Source: Actinomycetota bacterium (lineage in GTDB: Bacteria > Actinomycetota > Acidimicrobiia > Acidimicrobiales > CADCTF01). Taken from it: a stretch of DNA of 36,155 nucleotides. The notes under the pieces were generated by a model, which worked only from the letters and a program-made list of their open reading frames with translations, made no database searches and had not been told where the DNA came from. Every line of letters starts with the position of its first letter. Within the stretch, counting starts at the first letter, position 1. The DNA lies in the NCBI GenBank assembly GCA_019348255.1, contig JAHWJU010000012.1, positions 1 to 36,155 of the forward strand. Direction: 5' to 3'. Below, piece after piece: positions 25,509 to 26,719 of this stretch. The position numbers and the translations under genes were made by a program.

Positions 25509-25649
25509 CTAGGGACCGATGCAGACGCCGACGTTGCTCGGGTACGCGACCACGCAGACCCAGTTGCCCGGCACCAGGCTGGCGCCGGCGGGAGCCCCGG
25601 TACCGAGCCAGCCGAGGACGAACACGACGGTGGCGACCTGGCGCTTCAT
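25509..25649 (-). CDS. 46-aa predicted secreted two-cysteine peptide (not in the ORF track)
   Basis: Translation MKRQVATVVFVLGWLGTGAPAGASLVPGNWVCVVAYPSNVGVCIGP; SD GGAGGGGG 5 nt before ATG; ATGA overlap with sigma-factor stop; AGA|S signal-peptidase-like site. Confidence 0.65.
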   Translation of the reverse strand: MKRQVATVVFVLGWLGTGAPAGASLVPGNWVCVVAYPSNVGVCIGP

Positions 25650-26719
25650 CGGGTCCCCCTCCGGGCCAGCCCCTCGGCGAAACCGGGGGCTTCGGAGGCT
25701 ATGTCTGCCGGATCGTCGACGTAGACGCCGACGACGCCGTCGACTTCCAGTGAATGGGGGCTTTCGGCGCCGCGGCGCTCGGCCTCCTCGGCGGAGGTGA
25801 TCACCAGGAGGTCCTCCTCCGGGGCGGCGCGCTCGGGGCCGGTGGTGTCCGGAGCGGCATCAGGCGTCCTGGCGCCGTCAGTAGGGCCGGTGGCGGCACC
25901 CACCGGTGCTGCCGGCGACGGAGCCGCCGGAAGGACGGCTTCGAGGTGCAGTGGTGCCCGGCGGGGCTGGTCGCGGCGGTCGAACGGCTGGTCACCGGGC
26001 CCGGCCGTGGCTGTGGCCGTGGCGACCACAGCCACGGCCACCGAGAGGGCCGGGCCGGCAAGGGGCGGCAGTGCCGCCGACCACACCTCGAGCCGCGCCC
26101 GCAGCGATGCCATCGGCCGGGCCAGCAGCCCCAGCACCGGAACCGTCACCCACCTGCGGTCGTCTCCGTTCAGGGCCAGGAACTCCCGCCGCAGGGCCCT
26201 TCGGGCCCGGAACAGCAGCGCCTCCACCGTCCCCAGCGTCACCCCGTAGTGGGTCGCGATCTGCTGGTAGGACCAGCTCCGCCGCTCGCGCAGGTCGAGG
26301 ACCTCCCGGTGGCGCGGCGCCAAGCGGCTCAGGGCGGTGGCGAGAACCGTTCCGTCCGCCGCTTCGACGATCCGGTCCTGGCCTCCGTCGGTGACGCCGA
26401 GGTCTACTTCCGCGGTGGGGTGGCTGCGCCCTCTCCTGCGGTGGGCGTCCACACACAGCCGGGCTGCGATCACCGTCATCCACGGGTAGAAGCGCCGCTC
26501 GCCTTCGAACGACGGCAGGGCTCCAAGGGCGCGGGTGAAGGCTTCCTGGGCTATCTCCTCGGCCTCGTCGGCGTCGCCCACCCGCTTCTGGCAAAACCGC
26601 TTCAGGCGGGGGAAGTACCGCCGGTACAGCACCTCGAAGGCAGCATCGTCACCTTCCTGGAACCGCTCGACCAGGGCGCGATCACGCACCAGATCGACGT
26701 CGTCGACACCCAGCGCCAC
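25646..26719 (-). CDS. ECF-type sigma-70 factor with C-terminal transmembrane and extracytoplasmic extension
   Basis: Sigma2 (FEVLYRRYFPRLKRFCQKRVGDADEAEEIAQEAFTRAL) and sigma4 (LAPRHREVLDLRERRSWSYQQIATHYGVTLGTVEALLFRARRAL), then LPPLAGPALSVAVAVVATATATA (TM) and a Pro/Ala/Thr-rich tail. GTG 26719 chosen for strong upstream GGAGGGGGG; ORF track extends to 26800. Confidence 0.87.
   Translation of the reverse strand: MALGVDDVDLVRDRALVERFQEGDDAAFEVLYRRYFPRLKRFCQKRVGDADEAEEIAQEAFTRALGALPSFEGERRFYPWMTVIAARLCVDAHRRRGRSHPTAEVDLGVTDGGQDRIVEAADGTVLATALSRLAPRHREVLDLRERRSWSYQQIATHYGVTLGTVEALLFRARRALRREFLALNGDDRRWVTVPVLGLLARPMASLRARLEVWSAALPPLAGPALSVAVAVVATATATAGPGDQPFDRRDQPRRAPLHLEAVLPAAPSPAAPVGAATGPTDGARTPDAAPDTTGPERAAPEEDLLVITSAEEAERRGAESPHSLEVDGVVGVYVDDPADIASEAPGFAEGLARRGTR

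Follow-up and report, generated by a model that had tools for sequence, protein, structure and literature searches.

A 46-codon gene for a two-cysteine peptide overlaps the stop codon of a gene for an ECF sigma factor with a predicted membrane anchor in the window, the whole 36,155-nucleotide stretch of Acidimicrobiales DNA analyzed here. The gene pair, its overlap, the conservation of both cysteines, purifying selection on the peptide, and co-occurrence of the peptide with a short motif in the sigma tail are shown. A preliminary description, made from sequence alone, had read the pair as an exported peptide accompanying a membrane-tethered sigma factor, and this reading is supported; the choice it offered between ligand, modulator, and output of the sigma factor remains undecided.

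The peptide gene and its sigma factor

The peptide gene lies on the minus strand at positions 25509 to 25649 and comprises 46 codons plus a TAG (25511-25509), its product being MKRQVATVVFVLGWLGTGAPAGA followed, across the proposed cleavage site, by SLVPGNWVCVVAYPSNVGVCIGP. The minus strand reads ...CCCGGAGGGGGACCCG-ATG-A, and the start codon (ATG at 25649) shares a four-nucleotide ATGA (25646 to 25649, minus strand) with the sigma stop codon (TGA, 25648-25646). Within the sigma gene, a ribosome-binding-site-like GGAGGGGG (25655 to 25662, minus strand) ends 5 nt before this ATG, and SD-like sequence is found in 16 of the 21 members of the family described below. The 46-residue peptide occurs only once in its own 3.0-Mb draft genome. 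Residues 1 to 23 (25581 to 25649, minus strand) form a predicted Sec signal peptide, with inferred cleavage between APAGA and S; a basic N-terminal end and a hydrophobic core recur in every member. The predicted exported part (25512 to 25580, minus strand) carries Cys32 (25554-25556) and Cys43 (25521-25523), residues 9 and 20 counted from the proposed cleavage site. A signal-like N terminus combined with C-x8-11-C is present in 21/21 members and an A/V-x-A cleavage site in 18/21; the three without a clear site might remain anchored in the membrane. The reading frame, its coordinates, the ATGA coupling, the upstream GGAGGGGG, the product, and the placement of the two cysteines all held exactly as the preliminary description had given them. 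The signal peptide layout it reported held as a sequence pattern, export and disulfide formation being predictions only, and the tryptophan whose conservation it suggested testing is not strictly conserved: residue 30 is Trp in about 6 of 20 members and otherwise Phe, Ile, Leu, Val, His, or Ala.

Structure prediction (AlphaFold) from the peptide alignment was of low overall confidence (mean pLDDT, 63), with a predicted β-hairpin at residues 31 to 35 and 40 to 44 (local pLDDT, about 80) that places Cys32 and Cys43 on the two paired strands. No fitting family was found for the peptide in Pfam, NCBIfam, or PDB; one of 20 members gave a weak NCBIfam match to a protease inhibitor model (E = 0.0023), which may stem from the signal peptide. 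An ATP synthase subunit b (L255, genome G415) has an extracytoplasmic N terminus, LCVEILEKGGAVDDCQESPSPILP, that resembles the peptide core (C-x10-C then P-x-P; E = 3.5e-4), a resemblance that is probably coincidental.

The sigma gene (25646 to 26719, minus strand; 357 aa) encodes an ECF sigma factor with a tethered C-terminal extension, identified by orthologue alignment and by matches to Sigma70_r2 (PF04542, 3.6e-16), Sigma70_r4_2 (PF08281, 3.5e-11), and TIGR02937 (5e-25), which indicate regions 2 and 4 in the absence of region 3 and so meet the criterion for an ECF sigma factor. Comparison with orthologues, in which VALGVDDVDL aligns with MALRADDVDL, points to the GTG at 26719 as the most likely start codon. 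Right behind sigma4, a hydropathy maximum found in nearly all orthologues marks a predicted single membrane-spanning helix, AALPPLAGPALSVAVAVVATATA (26009 to 26077, minus strand), and this supports, as a prediction only, the earlier suggestion that the sigma factor is membrane tethered. Such a helix, followed by a tail of ~100 to 140 residues, is predicted in nearly all members, the exception being G004, where the best hydropathy window falls later. The tail carries a conserved, putatively extracytoplasmic motif, EEAERRGAESPHSLEVDGVVGVYVDDPADI (25700 to 25789, minus strand), aligned among peptide-bearing sigma factors. In the AlphaFold model sigma2 and sigma4 are confident, and the tail is poor and mostly of low confidence. 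The pair is flanked in the window by a convergent ruvB on one side and a divergent queA on the other. No ECF-type promoter common to members was seen upstream of the sigma gene in a scan for GAAC/CGT. M50 site-2-type proteases are encoded in the same genome.

Spread and conservation of the pair

A tblastn search with the 46-residue peptide alone returned only noise, with no relative in 98 other genomes, because the peptide diverges fast. The sigma factor itself has clear orthologues, and right at their stop codons a small open reading frame appears repeatedly, with a basic, hydrophobic start and two cysteines near its end. Thus, of the checks suggested in the preliminary description, the tblastn query with the peptide came back empty, and cysteine conservation was seen by way of the sigma orthologues. 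Twenty members were found by this position, directly downstream of sigma orthologues, and a peptide HMM built from them was used to scan 298 whole genomes. The strong hits all fell on loci already known, each beside a sigma gene and with a single one in each genome, and the next candidate, in G046, proved to be a 21st member, detected blind. Its contig begins inside the preceding gene, whose truncated frame ends in the sigma tail motif; the ATGA overlap is kept, and ruvB lies on the other side of the peptide gene. The peptide family thus comprises 21 members, drawn from 14 taxonomic families of a single Acidimicrobiales-like order, no genomes outside the class having been covered. Borderline HMM matches in G612, G486, G488, G415, G589, and G593 proved on inspection to be different proteins. 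A contig scan with the sigma alignment, which carries generic sigma2/sigma4 patterns, returned mostly unrelated ECF sigma factors, along with one sister-clade relative in Acidimicrobiales.

The same 4-nt overlap with the sigma stop codon is found in 19/21 members. The exceptions are G322, with a 4-nt gap, and G043, in which the peptide gene lies 133 nt past the sigma stop and has its own start region (L049, about 1455-1690); the latter indicates that the pair can persist without the overlap. The overlap flag in our member table checks only for TGA after the start codon, and the G322 and G043 rows were excluded from the overlap count. Most members come from draft assemblies, and the pattern recurs in long contigs (e.g., G015, G008, and G058). 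Thirteen of the 21 pairs lie beside ruvB and/or queA; for the remaining eight, the DNA examined, which in some cases extended only about 2 kb to each side, contained neither a ruv gene nor queA. The occurrence of the pair both inside and outside this neighborhood suggests that its two genes move together.

Both cysteines are invariant (21/21), spaced C-x10-C in most members, with x8, x9, and x11 also present, and beyond them the loop conserves only a V-x-V...N/D-x-G pattern. Two close pairs of relatives gave dN/dS values for the peptide of 0.13 (6 synonymous and 2 nonsynonymous changes; Fisher P = 0.009) and 0.117 (P = 1e-6), demonstrating purifying selection. Between the distant G058 and G098, pN/pS is near 1, reflecting quick divergence. 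As a control for chance, about 4,900 distinct open reading frames of 40 to 90 aa starting at NTGA were collected from the DNA examined; only 16 entries outside the family (0.3%) combined a signal-like N terminus with C-x8-11-C. The 46-codon frame with its ATGA coupling is therefore more than a chance occurrence. The preliminary description held that loss of the frame or its cysteines in relatives that keep the sigma factor would refute the idea, and had proposed dN/dS as a check; the idea survived the former in 21 genomes of 14 families, and dN/dS was low in the close pairs.

The peptide and the sigma tail as one unit

The sigma tree resolves two main groups. In group 1 (24 rows), the tails are long and of low complexity, and the peptide is absent; group 2 holds all peptide-bearing sigma factors, most with a short motif near the tail end, roughly A-x4-A-x3-P-V-x4-V-x-G-x4-G-L-D-P. 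In a simple form, this motif is present in 18/20 sigma factors with the peptide compared to 1/25 without it (Fisher P = 2e-9, a value that overstates independence, the rows being related). The control set for peptide absence is the sister sigma clade with low-complexity tails. Within group 2, the sigma gene of G271 occupies the ruvB/queA site seen in the window but has lost motif and peptide together, and both are likewise absent from G096 and G206. With the sigma domain controlled for, distances between peptide cores track distances between tails (partial rho = 0.35, P = 0.0005), and signal peptide distances, used as a control, do not (P = 0.37). The core-tail correlation is based on very short regions, and removal of six rows, which leaves the smallest subset, lowers it to 0.22 (P = 0.03).

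Other tethered sigma factors keep different company. The sister clade (L041, 2806-3705; L044, L045, L047, and L051) consists of tethered ECF sigma factors with long Gly/Ser/Thr/Pro repeat tails, and at the loci examined an MlaF-like ABC ATPase gene comes next in place of the peptide. On contig C56 of the window's own genome (L217, 2708-3829), a paralogous tethered ECF sigma factor is followed by a gene for a secreted subtilase (PF00082), another pairing of a tethered sigma factor with an exported protein (see also L058/L216), and G010 has a similar arrangement.

Proposed mechanism, rivals, and known systems

We propose that the pair is a two-gene module in which an exported, disulfide-closed hairpin partner binds the sigma tail outside the membrane and controls proteolytic release, a hypothesis for which belief and doubt are evenly balanced; translation coupling, export, disulfide, binding, sign of control, and proteolysis are all inferred, and there are no expression or binding data. 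The first gene would supply an ECF sigma factor with a one-helix anchor behind sigma4 and an extracytoplasmic tail bearing the short conserved motif. The second would be translated by stop-start coupling and its product exported by a Sec-type signal, the mature end folding into a disulfide-closed β-hairpin that binds the tail outside the membrane. There, the hairpin would control, and most likely restrain (the sign is a guess), the first cut, from which intramembrane proteolysis and release of the sigma domain would follow. Proteolytic release has been proposed for tethered actinobacterial ECF sigma factors (PMC8999054, PMC5826349). In ordinary ECF operons, the gene that overlaps or immediately follows the sigma stop codon encodes the anti-sigma factor; the mini-protein, whose gene occupies that position, may exert from outside the control that an anti-sigma factor would exert from inside. 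It is possible that the two cysteines confer redox sensitivity on the peptide. In a bolder reading, which we consider unlikely, the peptide would diffuse as a rapidly diverging signal, and its direct sensor would be the extracytoplasmic tail of the sigma factor with which it is cotranslated. If true, this would be a one-step pathway from outside to promoter, with ligand and receptor-sigma encoded by overlapping genes and with neither kinase nor anti-sigma factor.

A possible alternative to the hairpin-partner hypothesis is that the peptide is an output, secreted as an intercellular signal or antimicrobial and coupled to the sigma factor merely for joint production. The rapid divergence of residues other than the cysteines (pN/pS about 1 in G058 versus G098) and the small size, predicted export, and predicted disulfide of the peptide would suit such a role. 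However, the gene is single copy beside the sigma factor, our scans found no conserved immunity or transport gene adjoining it, and the peptide is lost where the tail motif is lost, a motif that an output would not need; the overlap with the sigma factor's own stop codon also better suits a stoichiometric partner. Less likely is a protease-directed modulator, whose hairpin loop would inhibit or guide the site-1 protease that cuts the tail without binding the tail itself. Inhibitors built on a disulfide-closed loop of roughly this size are known, and the weak protease inhibitor match points the same way, but that match is confined to one of 20 members and perhaps derives from the signal peptide, and the loop is unconserved beyond V-x-V...N/D-x-G.

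It is similarly doubtful that the peptide is an assembly or stability factor, a constitutive subunit that the tethered sigma factor needs in order to insert or remain stable, with no part in signaling. The overlapping genes and the joint occurrence of peptide and tail motif would fit this role, but related tethered sigma factors exist without the peptide (24 testable controls). That the frame is spurious, an untranslated chance product of GC-rich DNA, is supported by its very short length and by the absence of tblastn relatives for the peptide alone; it is all but ruled out by the unvarying cysteines and gene position across 21 genomes, by dN/dS of 0.12 to 0.13, and by the 0.3% background.

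Among known systems, the tethered actinobacterial groups ECF48, ECF52, and ECF53 (e.g., SCO4117; PMC5826349, PMC8999054) likewise have a sigma domain followed by a membrane helix and then a Pro/Ala-rich tail outside the cytoplasm, and the present sigma factor meets the criterion of helix plus extracytoplasmic tail by prediction only. It differs in having no match to a zinc finger (ZAS-like) family (Pfam, E ≤ 1), no cysteine between sigma4 and the helix, and a separately encoded exported two-cysteine peptide. Membership in ECF52 (SCO4117 type) was rejected, the Pfam scan having shown no C-terminal carbohydrate-binding domain. As in canonical sigma/anti-sigma operons (RseA and RsiV types), the second gene begins right at the end of the sigma gene, with an overlap, and in the case of RsiV an extracytoplasmic protein, lysozyme, can trigger proteolysis (PMC4183432). 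In contrast to a canonical anti-sigma factor, however, the peptide has few cytoplasmic residues and cannot hold the sigma factor from inside, and the sigma factor anchors itself. Identity as a class I anti-sigma factor was likewise rejected, with few residues before the hydrophobic core and no match in Pfam or NCBIfam. In Pseudomonas putida, IutY (ECF243) is a sigma factor fused to a membrane-bound regulator and activated by proteolysis (PMC8999054). It resembles the proposed module in joining a sigma factor to a membrane-bound part and in its mode of activation, but it serves siderophore cell-surface signaling, and no exported peptide partner is described in the relevant sections of PMC8999054. 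RseB-type exported coregulators act on the extracytoplasmic domain of an anti-sigma factor and gate the first cleavage. The peptide would be similar in being a separate exported protein that gates first cleavage through an extracytoplasmic domain, but RseB is a large periplasmic protein, whereas this mini-protein has a mature part of ~23 residues and no family match. No description of a sigma factor paired with an exported two-cysteine peptide was found in the open-access literature searched.

How tethered ECF sigma factors without an anti-sigma factor are switched off and on is largely unknown, and the peptide provides a specific candidate partner, a mini-protein encoded on the sigma factor's own stop codon across many families of one actinobacterial order. 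With fewer than 50 codons, this conserved gene fell below the open reading frame cutoff used and was missed by ordinary similarity search; it was recovered by position and cysteine pattern. Its conservation suggests an undescribed form of outside-the-cell control over a membrane-anchored transcription switch.
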